A stretch of DNA of 64,000 nt from Acetobacter lovaniensis (lineage in GTDB: Bacteria; Pseudomonadota; Alphaproteobacteria; Acetobacterales; Acetobacteraceae): NCBI RefSeq assembly GCF_014207635.1, contig NZ_JACHIE010000003.1, forward strand, positions 62,001-126,000, in the 5' to 3' direction. The position numbers were made by a program, and so were the translations under genes. Each line of letters begins with the position of its first letter. Within the stretch, counting starts at the first letter, position 1. A model generated the notes under the pieces. That model had not been told where the DNA came from. It did not search any database and saw only the letters and a list, made by a program, of their open reading frames with translations. Below, one piece after another: positions 2,832-25,680 of the stretch.

Positions 2832-4637
2832 TCAGCTCTCCCCCGTGGCCTGCGCGGCCCACATGGCTGCGTACTGGCCCTGTGCCGCCAGCAACTGCGC
2901 ATGTGTGCCACGCTCCACAACCAGCCCCTGCCCCATGACCAGAATTTCGTCCGCATCCACAATCGTGGAGAGCCGGTGAGCGATCACAAGGGTTGTCCGG
3001 TGGGCGGAAACGGTTTTAAGCGCTGCCTGAATTTCTTTTTCCGTATGTGTGTCCAACGCGCTGGTGGCCTCGTCAAGCACAAGAACGCGTGGGTCTTTCA
3101 AAATCGTGCGGGCTATGGCCACGCGCTGTTTTTCCCCACCTGAGAGCTTGAGCCCACGCTCGCCCACCTGTGTTTCGTACCCTTCGGGCAGGGTCATGAT
3201 AAAATCATGGATCTGGGCCAGCCGGGCAGCCTCCTCCACCTGTTCGGGAGTAGCCCCCAGACGCCCGTAGGCGATGTTGTAGCCTATGCTGTCATTGAAC
3301 AGCACGGTATCCTGCGGGACAACGCCTATGGCCGCACGCAGGTCCGCCTGACGGTATGAGCGCACGTCATGCCCATCCACCATGACCGCCCCGGACCATG
3401 TATCGTAAAAACGGAACAGCAGGCGGCTTATGGTGGATTTACCCGCCCCCGTACTCCCCACAATAGCCACCTTGTGCCCCGGCTGCACATCAAAACTGAC
3501 GCCGTGCAGGATCTCCCGCTCGGGGCGGTAGCCAAAATGCACATCACGGAACGCCACCTGTGCCGGAGCAGAGCCCGCCAGCCGCGTGGCAATGGGGAGC
3601 GGGCTGGCCGGGTCTGCCACCTCCACCACCTCTTCCGTCAGGCTGAGCATATGCTCCAGATCGACCAGAGCGGTGCGGATACCCGAATACACGGAACCCA
3701 GAAAATTGAGCGGGCCATAAAGCTGGAGCAGGTAGGTGTTGACCATGACAAACTCACCCACCGTAATGCGCCCCACCTCCACATCATGCCCGCCCAGCAG
3801 CATGATTGCGGCAAGAGATATGGCAATAATGGCCGCCTGACCAAAGTTGAGCACCCCTAGGGAGTACTGGGTTTTCATGGCCGCTTTTTCGTACCGGGCC
3901 TGCGCGTTGTCGTACCGCCGGGCCTCATGCTCCTCGTTGCCAAAATATTTTACGGTTTCGTAATTGAGCAGACTATCCAGCGCCCGGCCGGACGCCTCGG
4001 TGTTGGTGTCGTTCATACGGCGGCGAATACCCAGCCGCCACGAGGTAAACCGAACCGTAAACACAATATAGGCCGTGATCATGAGCGCGATCATGAGCAC
4101 ATAGGTCCAGTTGAACAGCCGCCAGATCACCCCCATCACCAGCAGGGCCTGCAAAATTGTCGGCGAGAGGGACATGAGCATGCGCAAAAGCGTTTCCACC
4201 GCTTCCGTGCCGCGCTCTATGGCGCGCGTAACACCCCCTGTGCGTCTGTCCAGATGGAAGCGCAGGGAAAGCTTATGCATATGCGCAAAACTGCGATAGG
4301 CCGCCTGCCGCGCCACACGGAAGCGCACGGGCGCGAACAGGGAATCCCGCAGGTTGGTCAACGCACCGGACACAAGGCGCACCAGACCGTAGCACAGGAT
4401 AAGTAACGCCGGTGCCATGGCCAGACTGCCGGGGTGTACAAACCTGTCCACCACCTTGCTATACACAATGGGCACTGACAGCGTTGCCAGTTCCCCGGCC
4501 ACAAGAACAACCAGCACCAGCGCCATACGCCAGCGCAGGGCCTTGTTCTCCTGCGGCCACAGATAGGGCAACAAACGGGCAAAAGTATAGGAAACCGGCC
4601 TATTGAGTGGGCCAGACACTGCTCTACGGGGGGACAT
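2832..4637 (-). CDS. Atm1/ABCB7/HMT1-type ABC exporter
   Basis: Half-transporter with a fused membrane and ATPase domain (601 aa). Relatives export glutathione-linked sulfur species or heavy-metal-glutathione conjugates across the inner membrane. Residues 1-330 hold about six helices and include the Atm1 subfamily hallmark NYETVKYFGNEEHE. The ATPase domain has Walker A GSTGAGKST, Q-loop VPQDTVLFND, signature LSGGEKQRVAIARTI, Walker B VLVLDEATSALD and the H-loop IAHRLST. Start ATG at 4637. It is divergent from the Nudix gene, with a 119-base gap. Substrate is inferred from the family; two glutathione-synthesis genes elsewhere in the window fit a GSH-dependent role. Confidence 0.92.
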   Translation of the reverse strand: MSPRRAVSGPLNRPVSYTFARLLPYLWPQENKALRWRMALVLVVLVAGELATLSVPIVYSKVVDRFVHPGSLAMAPALLILCYGLVRLVSGALTNLRDSLFAPVRFRVARQAAYRSFAHMHKLSLRFHLDRRTGGVTRAIERGTEAVETLLRMLMSLSPTILQALLVMGVIWRLFNWTYVLMIALMITAYIVFTVRFTSWRLGIRRRMNDTNTEASGRALDSLLNYETVKYFGNEEHEARRYDNAQARYEKAAMKTQYSLGVLNFGQAAIIAISLAAIMLLGGHDVEVGRITVGEFVMVNTYLLQLYGPLNFLGSVYSGIRTALVDLEHMLSLTEEVVEVADPASPLPIATRLAGSAPAQVAFRDVHFGYRPEREILHGVSFDVQPGHKVAIVGSTGAGKSTISRLLFRFYDTWSGAVMVDGHDVRSYRQADLRAAIGVVPQDTVLFNDSIGYNIAYGRLGATPEQVEEAARLAQIHDFIMTLPEGYETQVGERGLKLSGGEKQRVAIARTILKDPRVLVLDEATSALDTHTEKEIQAALKTVSAHRTTLVIAHRLSTIVDADEILVMGQGLVVERGTHAQLLAAQGQYAAMWAAQATGES

Positions 4638-4756
4638 GCCCCCGGATGTGGCACGTCAGGCAGTTTTTGCAACCCCCCCGCCACCTTGCCATGCCCCTTT
4701 TATGCCCCGATAACAGCATTCGTGTCTGGCACAGCAAGAACAGGACCTTTGCCCTT

Positions 4757-5629
4757 ATGCCTTCCCATGCCAACCCGTTCCTCCGCCATCTGACGGACTG
4801 CAACACGGCTACTCTTCCGGGTGGGCGCGCCCCCCTTGCCCTTGATGGCACGCCCTCTGGCTGGCTGGCGCCAGAATTGTTCACCCGCATGGAGCAGGCT
4901 GGCTTTGGCACGCCAGACAAAGGCTTTAACGTTCCCCACCCCAAGGGGCTTGAAGCACTGGGGGAAGACCTTGCCAGAGAGGGATTTTACAAATCCCACC
5001 ACGAACTGTTTGACGTTTACCCCGACATGGACCAGCCCGTTGTGGGCCGTATAGACCGCGGAGCGCTCCCCCTGTTCGGGTTTGTAGCAACGGGTGTGCA
5101 CATGAACGGCCTTGTCCGCAAGGCGGACGGGTTGCACCTGTGGACCGGGCGGAGGGCAGCCAACAAACGGCTGGACCCTTCCAAACTGGACCATCTGGTG
5201 GCAGGCGGCATGCCCACAGGCCACACCCCGCGTGAGGCACTGATCAAGGAAGCGGCAGAAGAAGCCAGCATACCCGACTCACTGGCGGAGCAGGCCGTGC
5301 AGGTCGGGCGACTTGTCTACGCTCTGAACCGCCCCGAAGGGCTGCGGCGCGATATTTTATACTGCTACGACCTGTACCTGCCCGAAAGCTTTGAGCCGAC
5401 CGCCGCCGATGGCGAGGTGGAAAGCTTTGCCCTGCTCCCGCTCAGCGAAGCTTACCGCATTGTGCGGGACACGGATGAGTTCAAGTTCAACGTCAATCTG
5501 GTACTGATCGACCTGTTCCTGCGCACCGGGCTGATTGACCCCACCAGCCCGCAGGGCATGGAACTGCGTACCGGGCTGGACAAAGGACTATCGCCCGCCA
5601 GCCCGGGCCGGAGCGTGACTTCAGGCTGA
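4757..5629 (+). CDS. Nudix hydrolase with DUF4743-type N-terminal domain
   Basis: The 290-residue protein has an N-terminal part typical of the DUF4743 group (FLRHLTDCNTA, then GWLAPELF) and a C-terminal Nudix fold. Relatives include plant and yeast Nudix proteins; the yeast member acts on oxidised thiamine diphosphate derivatives. The Nudix box is GGMPTGHTPREALIKEAAEE: the core KE..EE is kept, but the first Glu of the consensus (GGxxE) is replaced by Thr, as is common in this subgroup. I chose the ATG at 4757 because earlier in-frame ATGs overlap the divergent ABC gene. Its 3' end overlaps the convergent glnD gene by 9 bases. Substrate unknown. Confidence 0.85.
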   Translation: MPSHANPFLRHLTDCNTATLPGGRAPLALDGTPSGWLAPELFTRMEQAGFGTPDKGFNVPHPKGLEALGEDLAREGFYKSHHELFDVYPDMDQPVVGRIDRGALPLFGFVATGVHMNGLVRKADGLHLWTGRRAANKRLDPSKLDHLVAGGMPTGHTPREALIKEAAEEASIPDSLAEQAVQVGRLVYALNRPEGLRRDILYCYDLYLPESFEPTAADGEVESFALLPLSEAYRIVRDTDEFKFNVNLVLIDLFLRTGLIDPTSPQGMELRTGLDKGLSPASPGRSVTSG

Positions 5630-17645: not shown

Positions 17646-18911
17646 ATGACAGACCCCATCCAGCTCACCCGCCTGCCCTCCGGCCTGACCGTTGTGACCG
17701 AACGTATGGACCGTGTGGAAACCGTTTCCTTTGGAGCCTATATTTCCGCTGGCACCCGGAACGAAACCGCGGCGGAAAATGGCGTATCCCATTTTCTGGA
17801 ACACATGGCCTTCAAAGGCACGACCAGCCGCTCTGCCCTGCGCATTGCAGAAGAGATTGAAAACGTGGGTGGGCATATCAACGCCTACACCGCCCGTGAG
17901 CAGACGGTTTTTTACGTCAAGCTTCTCAAGGAAAATCTTGGGCTGGGGATCGACATTATTGGCGATATTCTCACCCACTCCACGTTTGATGCCGCCGAGC
18001 TTGAACGCGAGCGGGGCGTGATCTTGCAAGAAATCGGTCAGGCAAACGACACGCCGGATGACGTTGTTTTTGACCATTTTCAGGAAACTGCTTTTCCCAA
18101 CCAGCCCATGGGGCGCCCCATTCTGGGCACCGAGGCGCTGATCAAGGGCATGCAGCGCGATACGCTCACCTCATATATGCGCACGCACTACAACCCTGCG
18201 AACATGATTGTGGCTGCTGCTGGCAATCTGGAGCATCAGGCTGTTGTTACGCAGGTTGAGCAGCATTTTGCGCACCTGCCCACCACCAAAGCGCCAGCCA
18301 TGGAGACCGCACACTACGCCGGGGGCGAGTTCCGCCAGATCAAGGAACTGGATCAGGCGCATATTGTGCTTGGCTTCCCTTCCACCGGGTACCATGACCC
18401 CGACTATTACGCTGCCCTGCTGCTTTCCACCCTGCTGGGTGGGGGCATGTCCTCACGTCTTTTTCAGGAAATCCGGGAAAAACGCGGGCTGGTGTACTCG
18501 GTCTATTCCTTTAACGCCCCGTTTGAAGGCGGCGGCGTGTTTGGCATTTACGCAGGTACGGGGGAAAAGGAATGCGCAGAGCTTATTCCCGTAACACTGG
18601 AAGAACTCCGCAAGGTCCAGCTGGAAGTGAGCATGGACGAACTGGTGCGGGCCCGCGCGCAGCTTAAATCCTCCCTGCTCATGTCGCTCGAAAGCACGGG
18701 CAGCCGCTGCGAGCAGATTGCACGGCAACTCCAGATTTTTGGCCGCGTCATCCCCACGCATGAAACGGTCGCCAAGATCGAGGCCGTCACGCGTGAGGAT
18801 ATCTGCCGTGCGGCAGCCCGCATTTTTGCTGGAACGCCAACGCTTGCGGCCCTTGGCCCCATCGGCCACATTCCTTCCCTGCAAAGCATCAAGGAGACAC
18901 TGGCAGCATGA
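17646..18911 (+). CDS. M16 family zinc protease, mitochondrial processing peptidase-like
   Basis: A 421-residue protease with inverted zinc motif in HFLEHMAFKGT (HxxEH), a sequence identical in form to mitochondrial beta-MPP, and the distal Glu in ENVGGHINAYTAREQTVFYV. The C-terminal half has RGLVYSVYSF, the usual partner-domain motif. No signal peptide, so it is likely cytoplasmic. AGGA lies upstream of ATG 17646. Its last four bases overlap the pmbA start (ATGA), giving translational coupling to another peptidase-type gene. The substrate is unknown in bacteria; presequence processing is the mitochondrial role only. Confidence 0.93.
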   Translation: MTDPIQLTRLPSGLTVVTERMDRVETVSFGAYISAGTRNETAAENGVSHFLEHMAFKGTTSRSALRIAEEIENVGGHINAYTAREQTVFYVKLLKENLGLGIDIIGDILTHSTFDAAELERERGVILQEIGQANDTPDDVVFDHFQETAFPNQPMGRPILGTEALIKGMQRDTLTSYMRTHYNPANMIVAAAGNLEHQAVVTQVEQHFAHLPTTKAPAMETAHYAGGEFRQIKELDQAHIVLGFPSTGYHDPDYYAALLLSTLLGGGMSSRLFQEIREKRGLVYSVYSFNAPFEGGGVFGIYAGTGEKECAELIPVTLEELRKVQLEVSMDELVRARAQLKSSLLMSLESTGSRCEQIARQLQIFGRVIPTHETVAKIEAVTREDICRAAARIFAGTPTLAALGPIGHIPSLQSIKETLAA

Positions 18912-20248
18912 CGCAACAGCCCCTCGACCTTATTGCCGATCTGGTTAAACTTGCCCGCACCAGTGGGGCGGATGCCGCCGATGCCGTTTTTGTCAGCAGT
19001 ACCGCTGTAGGCGCTGGTGTGCGCAATGGCGTGACAGAAGAACTGGAACGCTCGGAAACAACCGATCTGGGGTTGAGGGTTTTTGTTGGCAACAAAAATG
19101 CCATTGTCTCCACCACAACTCCGGACCGGGCCAAGTTCGGCGCGCTGGTCGAGCAGGCTCTGGCCATGGCCCGCGTGCTCCCCGACGACCAGTATGCGGG
19201 CCTTGCGCCCAACGCCATGCAAGGCACATTCCAGACCAATGCTCTGGAACTGGCGGACCCGGCCGAGCCCGATACAGCCGCCCTGCTTGCACGCGCTCAG
19301 GCGGGGGAAGAAGCCGCACTGGCCATAACAGGCGTGACCAACAGCGCGGGGAGCAGTGCGTCATGGGGGCGCACCGACATTACTCTGGCAACCTCCGCCG
19401 GGTTTGCGGGCACTTACAGCCGCACCAGCCATTCCAACTCTGTCTGTGTTCTGGCAGGTACGGGGGATGGCATGCAGCGTGATTACGACTACCACGGCAC
19501 AGTCTGGCTGCATGACCTGAAGGACCCGGCAGAACTGGGCCGCAATGCCGGGCAAAAAGCAGTTGCACGCCTGAACCCGAGCCGCCCTAAAACGGGGCGC
19601 TACCCTGTTGTGTTTGATCCGCGGGTTGCTGGCAGCTTTCTGGGGCATTTTGTGGGGGCCATTACGGGCACCGCCATTGCCCGTGGCACATCCTTCCTTA
19701 AAGACAAAATGGGGCAGGCCATTTTTGCCAGCTCGGTTGGCATTACCGATGACCCGACCCGCATAAAGGGCCTGCGCTCCCGCCCGTTTGACGGAGAGGG
19801 CATGGCCGTCGCCCCGCTTTCGCTCGTACAGGGTGGCGTTTTACAAACCTGGGTGCTGGACAGCCGGAGCGCGCGCCAGCTTGGCCTGCAAAGCAATGCC
19901 CGCGCAGCCCGCGGCACGGCCAGCCCGCCCGGTCCCTCGGCAAGCAACCTATTCTTTGAGCCCGGTCATCTTTCCCCCTCAGCCCTGATGGCCGACATTC
20001 GGGAAGGGCTGTACATTACGGAAATGATGGGCTCCTCCATTAACGGCCTGACCGGGGATTACAGCCGTGGTGCCTCGGGCTTCATGATCCGTGATGGTCA
20101 GATAGCCGAGCCTGTAGCGGGCTTTACGCTTGCGGGGAATCTGCTGGAAATTTTTGCTTCCATCACATTAGCGGATGATCTGGTATTCCGTTTTGGCACC
20201 GACGCCCCCACATTACGCACAGATGTCCTGAATACTGCCGGGGCATAA
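18908..20248 (+). CDS. pmbA: TldD/PmbA family metalloprotease subunit PmbA (TldE)
   Basis: The 446-residue protein matches PmbA/TldE, the partner of the TldD protease that degrades small peptides and trims certain modified peptides. Visible family features are ERSETTDLGLRVFVGNKNA near the N-terminus, PVVFDPRVAGSFLGHFVGAI in the middle and GDYSRGASGFMIRDGQIAEPV near the C-terminus. PmbA lacks the zinc motif HExxxH found in TldD, and none is seen here. A tldD gene is not in the window. Start overlaps the M16 stop by four bases. Confidence 0.9.
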   Translation: MTQQPLDLIADLVKLARTSGADAADAVFVSSTAVGAGVRNGVTEELERSETTDLGLRVFVGNKNAIVSTTTPDRAKFGALVEQALAMARVLPDDQYAGLAPNAMQGTFQTNALELADPAEPDTAALLARAQAGEEAALAITGVTNSAGSSASWGRTDITLATSAGFAGTYSRTSHSNSVCVLAGTGDGMQRDYDYHGTVWLHDLKDPAELGRNAGQKAVARLNPSRPKTGRYPVVFDPRVAGSFLGHFVGAITGTAIARGTSFLKDKMGQAIFASSVGITDDPTRIKGLRSRPFDGEGMAVAPLSLVQGGVLQTWVLDSRSARQLGLQSNARAARGTASPPGPSASNLFFEPGHLSPSALMADIREGLYITEMMGSSINGLTGDYSRGASGFMIRDGQIAEPVAGFTLAGNLLEIFASITLADDLVFRFGTDAPTLRTDVLNTAGA

Positions 20249-20272: not shown

Positions 20273-21226
20273 GTGAAATCACGTCTGCTGCGATCAACCC
20301 TTCATGCCTTGCTGGCTGCCAGCCTGCTGGCCGGACCATTGGCCATACAGGCCGATGCACGGCCCGGTCAGGGTGGGTCCATGGGGAGCCGTGGTAGCCG
20401 CACATGGAGTGCCCCCCCTGTTACGCGCACAACGCCGTACAGTACCGCCCCCATGGACCGCTCCATTACGCCGCGCACTGCGCCCACCCCTGGCTATGGC
20501 GCACCACAGATGGCAGCTCCCTTTGCCCGCCCCATGGGCTCTCCCAACCGCCACCCATTCCTGACCGGTCTGGCCGGTGGTTTTCTGGGGGCCGGGCTGT
20601 TTGGTATGTTGAGCGGCCATGGCTTTATGGGCGGGATGCACGGCTTCTTCAGCTTTCTGGGGCTTCTGGTCCAGATCGGGCTGGTGGTCATGTTTGTCCT
20701 GTGGCTGATCCGCCGTTTCGGGCGTTCCAGTCAGGGCATTAACGGGTTTGGCATGTCCTCTCCGCGCGGTATGCCCGGCGCGGCTCCTGTCGCCCCTACC
20801 CCATCCGCAGGGGGAGCGCCCGTGCAGATTACCACGGCGGATTACCAGTCCTTCCAGCAAACGCTGATGGATATTCAGAGTGCGTGGAACCAGCAGAACA
20901 TTCCGGCCATGCAGCAGATGGCCACGCCGGAAATGGTCTCCTACTTCAATGAGCAACTGGCAACTCTGGCCAGTCAGGGTGCGCGCAACGTTGTCTCGGA
21001 TGTGCGTTTCCTTCAGGGGGATCTGGCCGAAGCATGGCGCGAGAACAACATGGATTACGCAAGTGTTGCCATGCGTTACAGCCTAATCGACCTGACAACC
21101 AATGCCACCGGTCAGGTGATTGATGGCAGTTCCACCACCCCCGTAACCATTACCGAAGTCTGGACATTCGTCCGTCCTTCCCGCGGGGGACGCTGGCTGC
21201 TTTCAGCCATTCAGCAGGCCCGCTAA
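20273..21226 (+). CDS. Exported TIM44-like domain protein
   Basis: The 317-residue protein starts at GTG 20273 with GGAG upstream, 24 bases after pmbA. Residues 1-30 form a signal peptide or anchor (RSTLHALLAASLLAGPLAIQ, then A-DARPGQG). A Pro/Ser/Met-rich stretch follows, then a Gly/Phe/Leu-rich hydrophobic region (GLLVQIGLVVMFVLWLIRRF) that is a membrane helix. The C-terminal ~120 residues have the TIM44-like fold (TADYQSFQQTLMDIQSAWNQ, then VTITEVWTFVRPS...WLLSAIQQA). Bacterial members are membrane proteins of unknown role. A strong terminator follows at 21253. Confidence 0.85.
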   Translation: MKSRLLRSTLHALLAASLLAGPLAIQADARPGQGGSMGSRGSRTWSAPPVTRTTPYSTAPMDRSITPRTAPTPGYGAPQMAAPFARPMGSPNRHPFLTGLAGGFLGAGLFGMLSGHGFMGGMHGFFSFLGLLVQIGLVVMFVLWLIRRFGRSSQGINGFGMSSPRGMPGAAPVAPTPSAGGAPVQITTADYQSFQQTLMDIQSAWNQQNIPAMQQMATPEMVSYFNEQLATLASQGARNVVSDVRFLQGDLAEAWRENNMDYASVAMRYSLIDLTTNATGQVIDGSSTTPVTITEVWTFVRPSRGGRWLLSAIQQAR

Positions 21227-21338: not shown

Positions 21339-21476
21339 TTACGGGTGGAACACTGTCAGCCCGAACATAATACCAGCCAGAACAAGCATGAACACAAGCA
21401 TGCTCCGTACCCGCTGGCTCTGCCGCTTCTGCCGTTCAAGCTGCTCTGGGGGCTGCTCCATTGGAAGAGTGGTCAT
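21339..21476 (-). CDS. Small single-helix membrane protein after ctaB (CoxF-like)
   Basis: A 45-codon gene. Its ATG overlaps the ctaB stop (ATGA at 21476-21473), so it is translationally coupled. The product is a polar, charged N-terminus (MEQPPEQLERQKRQSQRVR) followed by one hydrophobic helix (SMLVFMLVLAGIMFGLTVF) and stop. This layout (basic stretch, one helix, immediately after ctaB) is that of the short CoxF-type proteins of alphaproteobacterial cytochrome oxidase operons. Family assignment is by size, topology and position, not by strong sequence identity. It may assist heme O/A delivery or CtaB stability, but that is inference. Confidence 0.7.
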   Translation of the reverse strand: MTTLPMEQPPEQLERQKRQSQRVRSMLVFMLVLAGIMFGLTVFHP

Positions 21477-22438
21477 GCTGAGTGCATCCATATCTGAAAG
21501 AAGTGGTCACCAAGAAGGCCACAGAACAGAAAGAACAGATAAGCCAGAGAAAACCGGAACGAGATCCGCGCAGCCTTATCGCCCTTCTGGCTGACGCCGT
21601 TTTCGTCCTGCGGTTCCAGAAGCACGCGCACAGCACAGGCAACAAAACCAAGCCCCAGCACCACGGCAGTCACCGTGTAGATCAGCCCGCTCTCCCCCAC
21701 AAAAGACGGGATAAGCGAAACAGCGAGCAGAACCAGTGTGTAAGAGAATATCTGCCACCGCGTATGGCGCATGCCACGCACAACCGGCAACATGGGAATA
21801 CCCGCGCGCCCGTAATCCTTGCAGGCGTACAACGCCAGAGACCAGAAATGCGGCGGTGTCCAGAAGAACACAATACCGAACATGACCACCGGCATAAGCG
21901 CCATATGGCCCGTAGCAGCCGCCCAGCCGATCATGGGGGGGAAGGCGCCCGCCGCCCCACCGATAACAATGTTCTGCGGCGTGGAGCGCTTGAGCCACAT
22001 GGTGTAAATAACGGAATAGAAGAAAATGGAAAACGCCAGAATAGCGGCAGCCAGTGTATTGGTTGCAATCCACATAAGGCAGACGGACAGACAGGAAAGA
22101 CCAACCCCGTAGGCCAGAGCCTCGTTCTGGGGAATACGCCCCGAGGGCACCGGCCGTGTAATGGTCCGCTGCATGACCGCGTCAATATCCCGGTCGTACC
22201 ACATGTTAATGGCCCCGGCAGCGCCCGAGGCCAGACAGATGCAGAAGATGGTAACCAGCCCCACAAACGGGTCAAGGTGCCCGGGTGCCATGAACATGCC
22301 CGCAGCACCCGTAAACACGACCAGTGAAATAACCCGGGGCTTGAGCAAGGCCAGCCAGTCACGCGCCTGCGTACCAACCTGCTCCGTTTTAAAACGTGGC
22401 CGTCTGGCCTGCGGCTCGGAAAGACTGGCTTCGCTCAT
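21473..22438 (-). CDS. ctaB: Protoheme IX farnesyltransferase (heme O synthase)
   Basis: UbiA-superfamily membrane enzyme that attaches farnesyl to heme b to make heme O, needed by bo3 and aa3/ba3 oxidases. The 321-residue protein has the prenyl-diphosphate motif NMWYDRDIDAVMQRTITRPV, WLKRSTPQNIVIGGAAGAFPP and FFWTPPHFWSLALYACKDY, all characteristic of CtaB/CyoE, with about nine helices. Both ends overlap its neighbours by four bases (ATGA with the COX1-like gene upstream and with the small gene downstream), so the three form a coupled set. ctaC, ctaE and ctaG, the usual partners, are absent here. In acetic acid bacteria the product probably supplies a quinol oxidase encoded elsewhere. Confidence 0.95.
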   Translation of the reverse strand: MSEASLSEPQARRPRFKTEQVGTQARDWLALLKPRVISLVVFTGAAGMFMAPGHLDPFVGLVTIFCICLASGAAGAINMWYDRDIDAVMQRTITRPVPSGRIPQNEALAYGVGLSCLSVCLMWIATNTLAAAILAFSIFFYSVIYTMWLKRSTPQNIVIGGAAGAFPPMIGWAAATGHMALMPVVMFGIVFFWTPPHFWSLALYACKDYGRAGIPMLPVVRGMRHTRWQIFSYTLVLLAVSLIPSFVGESGLIYTVTAVVLGLGFVACAVRVLLEPQDENGVSQKGDKAARISFRFSLAYLFFLFCGLLGDHFFQIWMHSA

Positions 22439-23700
22439 AGGGCAGCCCCTCCGGCCACACCCGCTGCCGCATTTGCATGACCAGCAACCATGGGAATATC
22501 ACGCTGGAAGCTGATCACTGCTGCCAGCACAAATACCAGTGCGGCCATGCCAAACAGGGCACAACCCAGCACCTGCATGCCAGAAACAAACAGGCAGAGC
22601 GTTGCCGCCGCCGTTAATACAAAGTGCAGGCGGGCCAGCTTTTGTGGGTACCAGAACCCGCAGGCCTCACCCCGCCAGAGGTAAAAGCCACCGCAAACGG
22701 CATAAAGCGCGCCAAGCTGCAAAGCCGGGTGCAGACCTGTGCCCTGCACAAGCTGGACAACCCAGCCACCGGCCACAACGGCCAGAAAACCCATGCCCCA
22801 CAGCAGCGGCGTACGCAACGAAACCCGGGCTTTCCATGTGCCCGCAAGCCACAGACCAGCAAGGCATACGGCGGAAAGGGAGCACAACGCCAGCAGGCTG
22901 TTGCCAACCATTTGCGCCGTCTGGCTATCGGCTCCATGCGCCAGACTGCTCTTGGCCCATGCCACAACGCCCGAAGCTGCGGTAGCCGCCATAATGTAGG
23001 CAACAGGGCGTGTTTTAACCTGCCCGATGCGGGCGGCCATTTCAAACACGATCCCGAACCCGGCCAGCAGGACAATCAACCCGATGGGGGCTGCAAAATA
23101 CTCAGCGCCGATCACAGGGTTGGTCGCAGGCCACAGCCATGTCCGCAGCGTGGCAGCCGCAAAAACCGGAACACTCAGCAACAGCACGGCAGCAGACAGC
23201 ATTTCCCCCCACACGAAGGGGGAGAAAGACGTCTGTTCCAGACTATCGGCACAACTGTCAAAAATAGTGCTCAACAGCACCATGGCGGACATAAGCGTAC
23301 CCAGTGACCACAGAATATGGGCAATACGCACATCGGGCAGAGTGCAGGTCAGCACCGCAGCCAGAGCAAACACGCCAACGGCTGCCAGATTAAGCCGCCC
23401 CAGCAGCATGCTCCCCCGCCCAAGGGCGCGGGGCAGCCAGAGCGTGCCAAAACCACTAACCAGTGCGGGAACAACAACATACAGGAGCATCAGGGCCGGA
23501 TGGGCCTGTGCAAGCCTGCCCCACAGCCCGGTTGCAGGCAGCATGCCCATGCCTGCCAGAACGGAAACACCCCCACCGACAAGAGCGGCAGAAGCAGCAA
23601 GCAGCAGATAGGCTGTTCCAGCAGCGGCATCCTGCCGTTGGCTGGCGGTTTTATCCACCGGAGCCGAATACTGGTGAGACAGGCTGTGAGCCGAGATCAT
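22435..23700 (-). CDS. Heme-copper oxidase subunit I-like protein lacking the catalytic centre
   Basis: A 421-residue membrane protein that aligns by eye with COX1/CtaD. Compared with aa3 enzymes: helix II keeps AHPALMLLYVVVPALVSGFG (the heme a His), and helix V matches SPFVWGEMLSAAVLLLSVPV. Helix VI reads FAAPIGLIVLLAGFGIV, where COX1 has GHPEVYI..LPGFGI: the CuB His, proton-channel Glu and catalytic Tyr are gone. Helix VII reads VVAWAKSSLAHG in place of VVWAHHMYTAG, so both other CuB His are lost. Helix X reads GLHPALQLGALYAVCGGFYLW in place of HFHYVMSLGAVFGIFAG: the a3 His becomes Gly and the second low-spin heme His stays. It is about 100 residues shorter than COX1. Frame is intact; a promoter lies upstream; ctaB overlaps. 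It could bind one heme but cannot reduce oxygen. Confidence 0.82.
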   Translation of the reverse strand: MISAHSLSHQYSAPVDKTASQRQDAAAGTAYLLLAASAALVGGGVSVLAGMGMLPATGLWGRLAQAHPALMLLYVVVPALVSGFGTLWLPRALGRGSMLLGRLNLAAVGVFALAAVLTCTLPDVRIAHILWSLGTLMSAMVLLSTIFDSCADSLEQTSFSPFVWGEMLSAAVLLLSVPVFAAATLRTWLWPATNPVIGAEYFAAPIGLIVLLAGFGIVFEMAARIGQVKTRPVAYIMAATAASGVVAWAKSSLAHGADSQTAQMVGNSLLALCSLSAVCLAGLWLAGTWKARVSLRTPLLWGMGFLAVVAGGWVVQLVQGTGLHPALQLGALYAVCGGFYLWRGEACGFWYPQKLARLHFVLTAAATLCLFVSGMQVLGCALFGMAALVFVLAAVISFQRDIPMVAGHANAAAGVAGGAAL

Positions 23701-23778
23701 GCTCCATGTTCCATATTCTGTGCAGGTCCGTAATGGAGAACAGTAAACCCGCTAGACAAAAAACGACCATATTCTAGT

Positions 23779-23806
23779 GTTTTATGGCACAAAAGCATTC
23801 TGCCAA
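23779..23806 (-). promoter_or_regulatory. Predicted promoter for the COX1-like/ctaB cluster
   Basis: On the minus strand TTGGCA (23806-23801) is followed after 16 bases by TAAAAC (23784-23779), about 80 bases upstream of the COX1-like start. It suggests the cluster is transcribed independently of the methyltransferase gene upstream. Assigned by eye. Confidence 0.4.
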
Positions 23807-23853
23807 GCCACGCATGTCTAGCGCCCCAGCCAACACTGGAGCGCACATGTTTA

Positions 23854-24549
23854 TTAATCCGGCAGATTTTCCAGAGTAACCAGCGTGAAAAGGCCAAAAG
23901 GCCGCACTGGCTGAATAGTCGCCCGCGCGATGTCTGCCTGCGGGAGAAGCGATTCCATGGCAAAATCGGGGTGCCAGCCCAGCGAGTGGGAGGCGCGCGC
24001 CATGGCGTGTTCCACTGCACCGCGGATACCGCCGGGGGCCAGAAAATGGTTGATGAACAGGATATGCCCGCCCGGACGGACAACACGCTTAAGCTCACAC
24101 AGCAGCTTGCGCGGGTGCGGCACAACGGATGCAACAAACATGGCAACGGCGGCATCAAACGAGTTGTCTTCGAACGTGGTGTCCTCTGCATCCATTTCCA
24201 GCAGGGCCGTCACATTGCTCAGGTTATCGCGTTTGACGCGTTCGCGCGCCTTGGCCAGCATGTCGGTTGACAGGTCGATACCGGTAATGGCCTTGCTGCG
24301 GTTGTAATGCGGGAGCGCAAGCCCGGTCCCCACACCCACTTCGAGCACATCCCTGCCGGGCAGGGCATTGATCGTGTTGACCGCCTTGAGGCGGCCGAAA
24401 CGCGAAATACCACCGAATCCCAGATCATAGACATTGGCCCAACGCCGATAGGCCTGTTTGACGGCCTCCGCATCAAGCGCGGAACGCGAGGGAGGGGGTA
24501 CGGGGCTTTCCCCTCCGCTGGAGGGGTATTCTTGGAGAACGTCACTCAT
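23854..24549 (-). CDS. pmtA: PmtA-type SAM-dependent methyltransferase (probable phosphatidylethanolamine N-methyltransferase)
   Basis: Class I methyltransferase with VKQAYRRWANVYDLGFG at the start of the fold, SAM motif I VLEVGVGTGLALPHY, motif II GIDLSTDMLAKARERV and ELKRVVRPGGHILFINHF. The opening motif resembles the Rhodobacter-type PmtA enzymes that make phosphatidylcholine from phosphatidylethanolamine, a lipid abundant in acetic acid bacteria. UbiE-like quinone methyltransferases are the alternative. I placed the start at 24549 (MSDVLQE, 231 aa) because the ORF's earlier ATG (24627) adds a poorly conserved-looking extension and family members are about 205 residues; this is uncertain. 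Confidence 0.75.
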   Translation of the reverse strand: MSDVLQEYPSSGGESPVPPPSRSALDAEAVKQAYRRWANVYDLGFGGISRFGRLKAVNTINALPGRDVLEVGVGTGLALPHYNRSKAITGIDLSTDMLAKARERVKRDNLSNVTALLEMDAEDTTFEDNSFDAAVAMFVASVVPHPRKLLCELKRVVRPGGHILFINHFLAPGGIRGAVEHAMARASHSLGWHPDFAMESLLPQADIARATIQPVRPFGLFTLVTLENLPD

Positions 24550-24684
24550 GTTCTCTCTCTGCCCGCTGACGGACATTTCTTCAAGAGCCACTATACTCTC
24601 ATCCTTCCTGCTTGCGGCATGCACCACAAAAGTGCCCTTGTGTGGCAGCCCGGCATGATACCGCCCAACAGGGTCTGACTGCTT

Positions 24685-25680
24685 TTATTGGACAGACAAC
24701 TTACGTTCAATACAATCCCATATGCTGGCGGCACCATTTATGCCATCAAACCGTTCCAGCTCCTGCAAACCGGTGGGAGATGTCACATTGATTTCCGTCA
24801 GATACTGCCCAATAACATCAATCCCCACAAAAATCAGGCCATGTTCTTTAAGAAACGGCCCGATCGCCTCACAAATCTCGCGGTCACGGGCACTCAGCTC
24901 CACTTTGCAGGCCACGCCCCCCACATGCATGTTGGAGCGGTGGTCATCCCCCGATGGCACGCGGTTGATCGCACCAATCGGCTGACCATCCACCAGAATA
25001 ATGCGCTTGTCCCCCGCAGTTACGGCGGGTTCGTACCGCTGGATCATGAGGGGTTCGCGCGAGCGGGCAAAGTGCATTTCCAGCAGGGCGTTCAGGTTCT
25101 GGTCATCCGCTTTAATCCGGAAAACGCCACTCCCGCCGTTACCAAACAGGGGTTTGACAATAATGTCTTTCCATTTGGCGCGAAATGCCCGAATCTGCTC
25201 GATATCCCATGTCACCAGTGTTGGCGGCATAAGCTGGGGAAAATGCGTGACCAGCAGTTTTTCCGGGCTGTCACGCACCCAGCGCGGGTCATTGACCACG
25301 AGCGCGCGGCCGGGACCAACGCCGTGGATATGGTCCAGCATATGCGTGGCGGTAATATAAGCCATGTCAAACGGTGGGTCCTGGCGCATGAGCACCACAT
25401 CCATCGTACGCAGCGAGCGGCGCCCGGCATCGCCGAATGTGGCGTGTCGCCCTTTTTCCCGCCGCACGGTAACCGGGCGCATCAGGGCCGTCACATCGGT
25501 ACGGGTTGCGCCACGCGCTTCGTGCACACCTTCATCCAGAGCCATGGACCCTACTTCGTACACAAACAGGCTATGCCCGCGGGCCTGTGCTTCGAGCATC
25601 AGGGCGAAGGTTGAATCCCCATCAATATTAACATGCTCAAGTGGGTCCATCTGGACCGCCACAAGCCGTGGAGAAGCCAT
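24685..25680 (-). CDS. gshB: Glutathione synthetase
   Basis: ATP-grasp ligase joining gamma-glutamylcysteine and glycine. The 331-residue protein starts MASPRLVAVQMDPLEHVNID, typical of GshB, and has VLMRQDPPFDMAYITATHML, the ATP-grasp loop KPLFGNGGSGVFRI, EPLMIQRYEPAV and the C-terminal FVGIDVIGQYLTEINVTSPTG. The first-step gene, gshA, is about 37 kb away in the same window, so the pathway is not an operon. It lies 81 bases downstream of the GT39 gene on the same strand. Confidence 0.96.
   Translation of the reverse strand: MASPRLVAVQMDPLEHVNIDGDSTFALMLEAQARGHSLFVYEVGSMALDEGVHEARGATRTDVTALMRPVTVRREKGRHATFGDAGRRSLRTMDVVLMRQDPPFDMAYITATHMLDHIHGVGPGRALVVNDPRWVRDSPEKLLVTHFPQLMPPTLVTWDIEQIRAFRAKWKDIIVKPLFGNGGSGVFRIKADDQNLNALLEMHFARSREPLMIQRYEPAVTAGDKRIILVDGQPIGAINRVPSGDDHRSNMHVGGVACKVELSARDREICEAIGPFLKEHGLIFVGIDVIGQYLTEINVTSPTGLQELERFDGINGAASIWDCIERKLSVQ

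Follow-up and report, generated by a model that had tools for sequence, protein, structure and literature searches.

A COX1-derived pseudo-oxidase encoded next to ctaB in acetic acid bacteria keeps the low-spin heme ligand positions and is a candidate heme-holding partner of CtaB

The closest described relative of the protein studied here is CtaD (COX1), the A-type subunit I of cytochrome c oxidase (PF00115), and a derived form of its gene has already been noticed in acetic acid bacteria. In Acetobacter, a deranged COX1-like gene clustered with ctaB was described by Degli Esposti et al. (2023; PMC10715153) with reference to Matsutani et al. (2014), and its product was stated to have lost all the metal ligands. 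In A. pasteurianus, the gene was listed as ctaD (PMC5158111), and ctaB and ctaA were regarded as remnants of the oxidase cluster that still function (PMC6915089). The aa3 oxidase was reported to be absent from acetic acid bacteria (Chouaia et al. 2014; PMC4007555), and in A. aceti a bo3/ba3 oxidase ranks among the main terminal oxidases (PMC9171043). According to PMC10588857, the route by which heme enters a bo3 oxidase has yet to be worked out, and the same is said of the insertion of heme A into aa3 oxidases after its synthesis (PMC9145763). SURF1 (Surf1q), a membrane heme binder serving an oxidase (PMC9145763, PMC10588857), could have only a role in common with our protein: it has an extracytoplasmic domain with a helix on either side (PMC9145763), whereas the protein described here has another architecture and gave no SURF1 match in Pfam. 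CtaA is likewise a multi-helix membrane protein, able to associate with CtaB in a complex (PMC9145763), but it is encoded by a separate gene, found in 42 of the 80 genomes searched below.

By its description and its clustering with ctaB, the "deranged COX1-like protein" corresponds to the gene analyzed here, and the gene itself is already known. In print, all its metal-binding residues are lost (PMC10715153); in our alignment, both low-spin heme ligands are present in 73 of 73 relatives, which contradicts the published "all." In the open-licence papers searched, we came across no mention of retained low-spin heme ligands. As far as the literature searched goes, the novelty thus lies in the kept heme site, the spread of the gene, the selection acting on it, the pattern of its loops, and its co-occurrence with other genes.

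We analyzed a window of 64,000 nucleotides from Acetobacter lovaniensis, in which the gene, hereafter the relic, lies directly upstream of ctaB (Table 1).

Table 1. Coordinates of the relic, its conserved residues, and its neighbors in the window
Feature	Position	Strand	Basis
COX1-derived pseudo-oxidase (relic of ctaD), 421 aa	22435..23700	-	PF00115, PDB profile match, tree
Codon of His67, helix II low-spin heme ligand position	23500..23502	-	Aligns with P. denitrificans His94; His in 73/73
Codon of His324, helix X low-spin heme ligand position	22729..22731	-	Aligns with P. denitrificans His413; His in 73/73
Codon of invariant Trp164, helix V	23209..23211	-	Trp in 73/73 relatives and 10/10 real COX1
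Codon of invariant Trp248, helix VII	22957..22959	-	Trp in 73/73 relatives and 10/10 real COX1
ATGA overlap of relic stop and ctaB start	22435..22438	-	Sequence; ATGA at 57/75 relic loci
ctaB, heme O synthase	21473..22438	-	NF003349, 342.2 bits; sole one found in window genome
Methyltransferase, conserved flank	23854..24627	-	Pfam, synteny; in L155 ctaC separates its homologue from ctaD
Glutathione synthetase, conserved flank	24685..25680	-	Pfam, synteny
Tim44-domain protein, conserved flank on ctaB side	20273..21226	+	Pfam, synteny
PmbA/TldD peptidase, conserved flank	18908..20248	+	Pfam, synteny

The 421-codon frame is intact, as an earlier note made from the sequence alone had claimed, with an ATG start and no internal stop. 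Its product matched PF00115 with an E value of 2.6e-13 and 50.1 bits, above the curated cut-off of 34.8, and reached only 49.9 bits against the CtaD equivalog TIGR02891, far below the cut-off of 670.75, so that the relic is a COX1 homologue distant from ordinary CtaD. In the PDB, the single sequence matched 7jro_a (E 1.3e-17), and a profile built from 47 family members matched two A-type subunit I chains over nearly the full length, 7jro_a at 2.2e-79 and 3ehb_A (P. denitrificans subunit I) at 3.9e-75; on the former value, a chance similarity to COX1 was rejected. The alignment to subunit I that the earlier note had made by eye is confirmed by these profile comparisons, but not its extent from helix I to helix X, since the near-full-length profile alignment carries the homology past helix X. 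Among seven other relics scanned with PF00115, three passed the cut-off (L138, L125, and L106), one fell just under it (L134, 31.2), and three gave no match (L110, L103, and L105). Many public records label relic proteins "cbb3-type cytochrome c oxidase subunit I," an identity that we rejected: only PF00115, CtaD, an aa3 model, and CyoB were matched, and no cbb3-named chain occurred among the PDB matches listed. Such labels can mislead reconstructions of respiratory chains.

Residues were counted in an alignment of 73 relatives (25 rows from the genus of the window and 48 from 18 other genera) with 10 real COX1 proteins of Acetobacteraceae, the family to whose genera, 19 in the alignment, the survey was restricted. 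From 61 first matches, 7 were left out, and 19 were added from a second set of 20 genomes that have ctaB and had been missed by the first relic profile. The rows left out were the frameshifted L108 and L024; L115, a real COX1 truncated by its contig; L121, interrupted at a contig end; L021; and L117 and L118, whose proteins are identical to L017 and L016. L157, which repeats the L101 region, was unused. Pairwise identity among the 73 rows has a median of 26% and a minimum of 16%; the rows fall into 66 clusters at 90% identity and 37 at 60% and are thus not independent.

Four residues are universal in this alignment, His67, Trp164, Trp248, and His324, and the same four columns were the sole invariant ones in the 47-row alignment. 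His67 sits in AHPALM, and His324, in GLHPAL, is the second His of the HFH motif; counted by hand on the profile alignment, they are equivalent to His94 and His413 of P. denitrificans, which we take to be the low-spin heme a ligands. The low-spin pair read by the earlier note in AHPALM and GLHPALQLGA therefore holds as in CtaD, and in every aligned relative. The probability that both named His would fall within four random invariant columns of 411 is ~7e-5, a rough figure because His and Trp change slowly in general. When inspected later, the rows left out of the alignment also had both His in L117, L118, and L021; as for the fragments, the helix II His was present in L121, the helix X His in L024, and both, in separate frames, in genome G327 (L108 and L168).

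The catalytic side, by contrast with these ligands, has been lost. The first, second, and third CuB His are present in 0, 23, and 1 of the 73 relics; the catalytic Tyr, the K-channel Lys, and each Arg of the heme-propionate pair are present in none; the high-spin heme a3 His of helix X occurs once (L123, the other g61 member, L102, being without it); and the channel Glu is kept in 28. In the window protein, the CuB His, the heme a3 ligand, and the catalytic Tyr are all missing, and the changes from HPEVY to APIGL, HH to KS, and HFH to GLH are visible as previously described. The relic does not show the features expected of a functional heme-copper oxygen reductase (the three CuB His with the cross-linked Tyr, the high-spin His, and the K-channel Lys with the propionate Arg pair), and all 73 rows have the two low-spin His in helices II and X that were taken as a mark of PF00115 membership by descent. 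The loss on the catalytic side with the low-spin ligands spared, first noted in one protein, extends to the whole alignment. We consider it probable from these residues that the relic binds heme; any heme would sit differently, since the propionate Arg pair is gone. As side observations, the second CuB His position, in contrast to the remaining CuB ligands, is retained across several genera (g42, g60, g73, g85, and others); Trp131 (window numbering), found in 69 of the 73 relics at a position that is Ala or Ser in all 10 real COX1, arrived with the relic; and Trp301, also in 69 of 73, stands where real COX1 has Trp or Phe.

The length differences are not spread evenly over the protein. Comparing medians in real COX1 and in the relic, the shortened segments were those between helices III and IV (64 versus 37 residues), V and VI (54 versus 42), IX and X (42 versus 28), XI and XII (40 versus 18), and I and II (47 versus 40), whereas those between II and III (34 in both), IV and V (26 in both), VI and VII (47 versus 45), VII and IX (48 in both), and X and XI (34 in both) were little or not changed. 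The equal length of the segments that follow the two His indicates that their match is not a gap artefact. In COX1, the shortened segments hold the periplasmic loops that bear the subunit II surface, and the unchanged ones comprise the short loop VII-VIII and those on the cytoplasmic side. The periplasmic and not the cytoplasmic loops were thus trimmed: the parts for electron entry and for oxygen chemistry are gone, and a membrane core with one heme site remains. This bears on a first alternative, that of a one-heme membrane electron carrier, i.e., a b- or o-type cytochrome passing electrons for example from quinol to a partner. Bis-His low-spin sites are typical of electron-carrying cytochromes, and the ligands of such a site are kept here, but a single heme hardly spans the membrane, the periplasmic loops are cut together with what we take to be the Mg-site His, and no redox partner was found among the conserved neighbors tested (ctaB, methyltransferase, glutathione synthetase, Tim44, and PmbA). 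We regard electron transfer as a quite improbable function.

The relic is immediately upstream of ctaB at 78 loci (59 of 61 in the first set and 19 of 20 in the second), where the fetched stretch also holds the methyltransferase at all 78, glutathione synthetase at 77, Tim44 at 70, and PmbA at 68. In the window genome, the only other heme O synthase match scored 78.6 bits, under the cut-off. Both the ATGA coupling and the tie to ctaB proposed in the earlier note are therefore sustained, whereas its plausible promoter is not: a scan of 21380-23900 for sigma-70 type sites returned a single site, located inside ctaB, versus a mean of 1.0 in shuffled sequences, and we dropped the idea of a special relic promoter. 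Since a membrane protein with a His pair overlaps the only heme O synthase gene found in the genome, a heme-holding partner of CtaB is suggested. The overlap could also be read as the sign of a heme sensor or titrator, the heme-bound relic tuning the level or activity of CtaB; such overlaps are nevertheless frequent in operons without any need for sensing, and no regulatory domain was found in Pfam, which makes this reading highly unlikely. Another explanation, suggested in PMC10715153, is an empty scaffold that steadies CtaB in the membrane, heme being irrelevant. Adjacency to and overlap with ctaB, as well as the fold kept according to the profile match, fit such a stabilizer, but it gives no reason why two heme ligands should be among four invariant residues at 26% median identity, and we hold it to be unlikely.

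The origin of the relic was addressed with a maximum-likelihood tree of 60 proteins, which places 30 of 30 relics to the same side of a 100/100-supported branch, beside Acetobacteraceae ctaD. The tree was midpoint-rooted, its relic branches are long and its composition is uneven, and the inner relic branching was not used; a single origin of the relic is thus valid only with the root among the real oxidases. At locus L155, the methyltransferase, Tim44, and PmbA flank a complete ctaC-ctaD-ctaB, a locus that the relic shares, except that no ctaC lies between methyltransferase and relic. Judged from sequence comparisons, the relic is ctaD left in place, ctaC having been lost there. Import of an odd COX1 from elsewhere was rejected on account of the grouping next to Acetobacteraceae ctaD and of the common flanks.

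The relic is under purifying selection. Of 17 pairs picked among 19 Acetobacter sequences (Nei-Gojobori method), 13 gave a dN/dS of 0.06 to 0.14, and the 4 most distant ones, for which dS exceeds 1.4 and is partly saturated, gave 0.17 to 0.24; ctaB ranged from 0.01 to 0.09 and was slower than the relic in 17 of 17 pairs. An open frame occupies the relic position at 76 of 78 loci, the two frameshifted ones being A. papayae JCM 25143 (L024) and G327, a draft that is 85% complete; other A. papayae proteins are full length, and stop-flagged matches in G030, G214, and G218 proved to have intact frames on inspection. A recent pseudogene was rejected on the basis of dN/dS and of the tree. The COX1-like gene has reportedly been viewed by Matsutani et al. 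in 2014 as having "accumulated mutations," and one may ask whether it is a functionless, decaying remnant, retained merely by its position upstream of ctaB. The lost catalytic ligands, the two frameshifted loci, and the faster evolution compared to ctaB would agree with decay; however, dN/dS values of 0.06 to 0.24, the frames still open at nearly all loci, the invariant His pair, and an old origin in the tree with 388 to 520 residues still present across the 73 rows all argue against it, and we consider decay a very remote explanation. None of the three outcomes that the earlier note named as refuting its reading was observed (no profile homology to COX1, a His pair that varies among orthologues, and neutral dN/dS or many frameshifts signaling decay alone), and the repurposing that it suggested is in part borne out, by the catalytic-side loss with low-spin ligands kept, by purifying selection, and by the tie to ctaB.

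Co-occurrence of the relic with CyoB was searched in 80 genomes of the 113 listed as belonging to the acetous side or without a match, a draw and not every species. A CyoB match was found in 74 (68 above the curated cut-off) and the relic in 73, namely, in 73 of the 74 CyoB genomes and in none of the 6 CyoB-less ones (G210, G029, G116, G066, G070, and G031). A second homology search found few further, distant members. Five of the six CyoB-less genomes have no ctaB above the cut-off: G210, G029, G116, G066, and G070, of 1.7 to 2.1 Mb, have neither relic, ctaB above the cut-off, nor CyoB, and seem to live without this quinol oxidase. In the sixth, G031, ctaB lies at a contig end with SURF1 on the same contig, and neither relic nor CyoB was found; it probably carries an ordinary oxidase operon and is uninformative rather than in support of co-absence, which amounts to 5 informative genomes from 4 genera, all small. 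The exception among CyoB genomes, G001, has two CyoB, no relic, and no SURF1, and its methyltransferase adjoins ctaB without a COX1 between them (L141, about 3137-4853), showing that the bo3 oxidase can manage without the relic. To our knowledge, E. coli has no such protein and yet makes bo3 oxidase.

CtaA was not found in 32 of the 73 relic genomes, and in 11 relic genera as sampled (g9, g23, g26, g32, g37, g46, g54, g61, g79, g85, and g101) it was not found at all, for which reason a dependence of the relic on heme A was rejected. The Arg that is presumably the binder of the heme a formyl group is kept in only 5 of 73 relics. As the relic tracks CtaB and CyoB and not CtaA, and this Arg is mostly gone, heme O or B is favored over heme A; the low-spin fold suits a farnesylated heme, although sequence alone does not separate B, O, and A. 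SURF1 was found in 1 of the 80 genomes (G031) versus 40 of 40 sampled from the rest of Acetobacteraceae, each of which has a COX1-type match and one of which (G045) has a SURF1 match carrying stops; its loss is confounded with that of the aa3 operon.

We propose a model in which the relic is a conserved one-heme pseudo-oxidase, a membrane partner of CtaB that may hold or hand over heme, to which we give a probability of about 0.5. It stems, at the original location, from the ctaD of an aa3 cytochrome c oxidase operon that has been lost. Membrane core, cytoplasmic loops, and the bis-His low-spin site persist in it; the binuclear centre and the K pathway are gone, as is most of the periplasmic face to which subunit II docked. 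The product would contact CtaB and bind one heme, most plausibly heme O or else the heme B substrate, which would be held for, or passed to, the bo3/ba3 quinol oxidase; that the role in heme handling is linked to CtaB is in our view an even bet. The former client of CtaB would then have been kept as an adaptor once the client enzyme was replaced. More tentatively, we put forward that acetic acid bacteria came to depend on a quinol oxidase fed by the heme O synthase of the old oxidase, and that ctaD, stripped to its low-spin site, may have survived as a CtaB-coupled acceptor of heme O, replacing the insertion role that SURF1 has in sister groups. If so, a heme chaperone would have been built from the enzyme once loaded with that very heme. 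Here a pseudoenzyme has arisen from a respiratory complex's catalytic subunit, and if the relic holds heme for CtaB, it would offer a single, small, and genetically accessible component for the heme-insertion step.

Other COX1-family proteins were encountered in these genomes. A separate and apparently real oxidase with HPAVY in place of HPEVY is found in some acetous genera (g42, g56, g60, g71, and g73); by best protein matches, g60 and g42 are Komagataeibacter and Gluconacetobacter, and g73 is probably Novacetimonas. These oxidases lie at their own loci (L158-L164 and L166), and all 8 of them form one group in the tree. The genome of the window itself encodes a 780-aa COX1-family protein (G000:C33:4255-5613; L002 1366-3708, minus strand), whose size and appearance might make it a quinol-dependent nitric oxide reductase.
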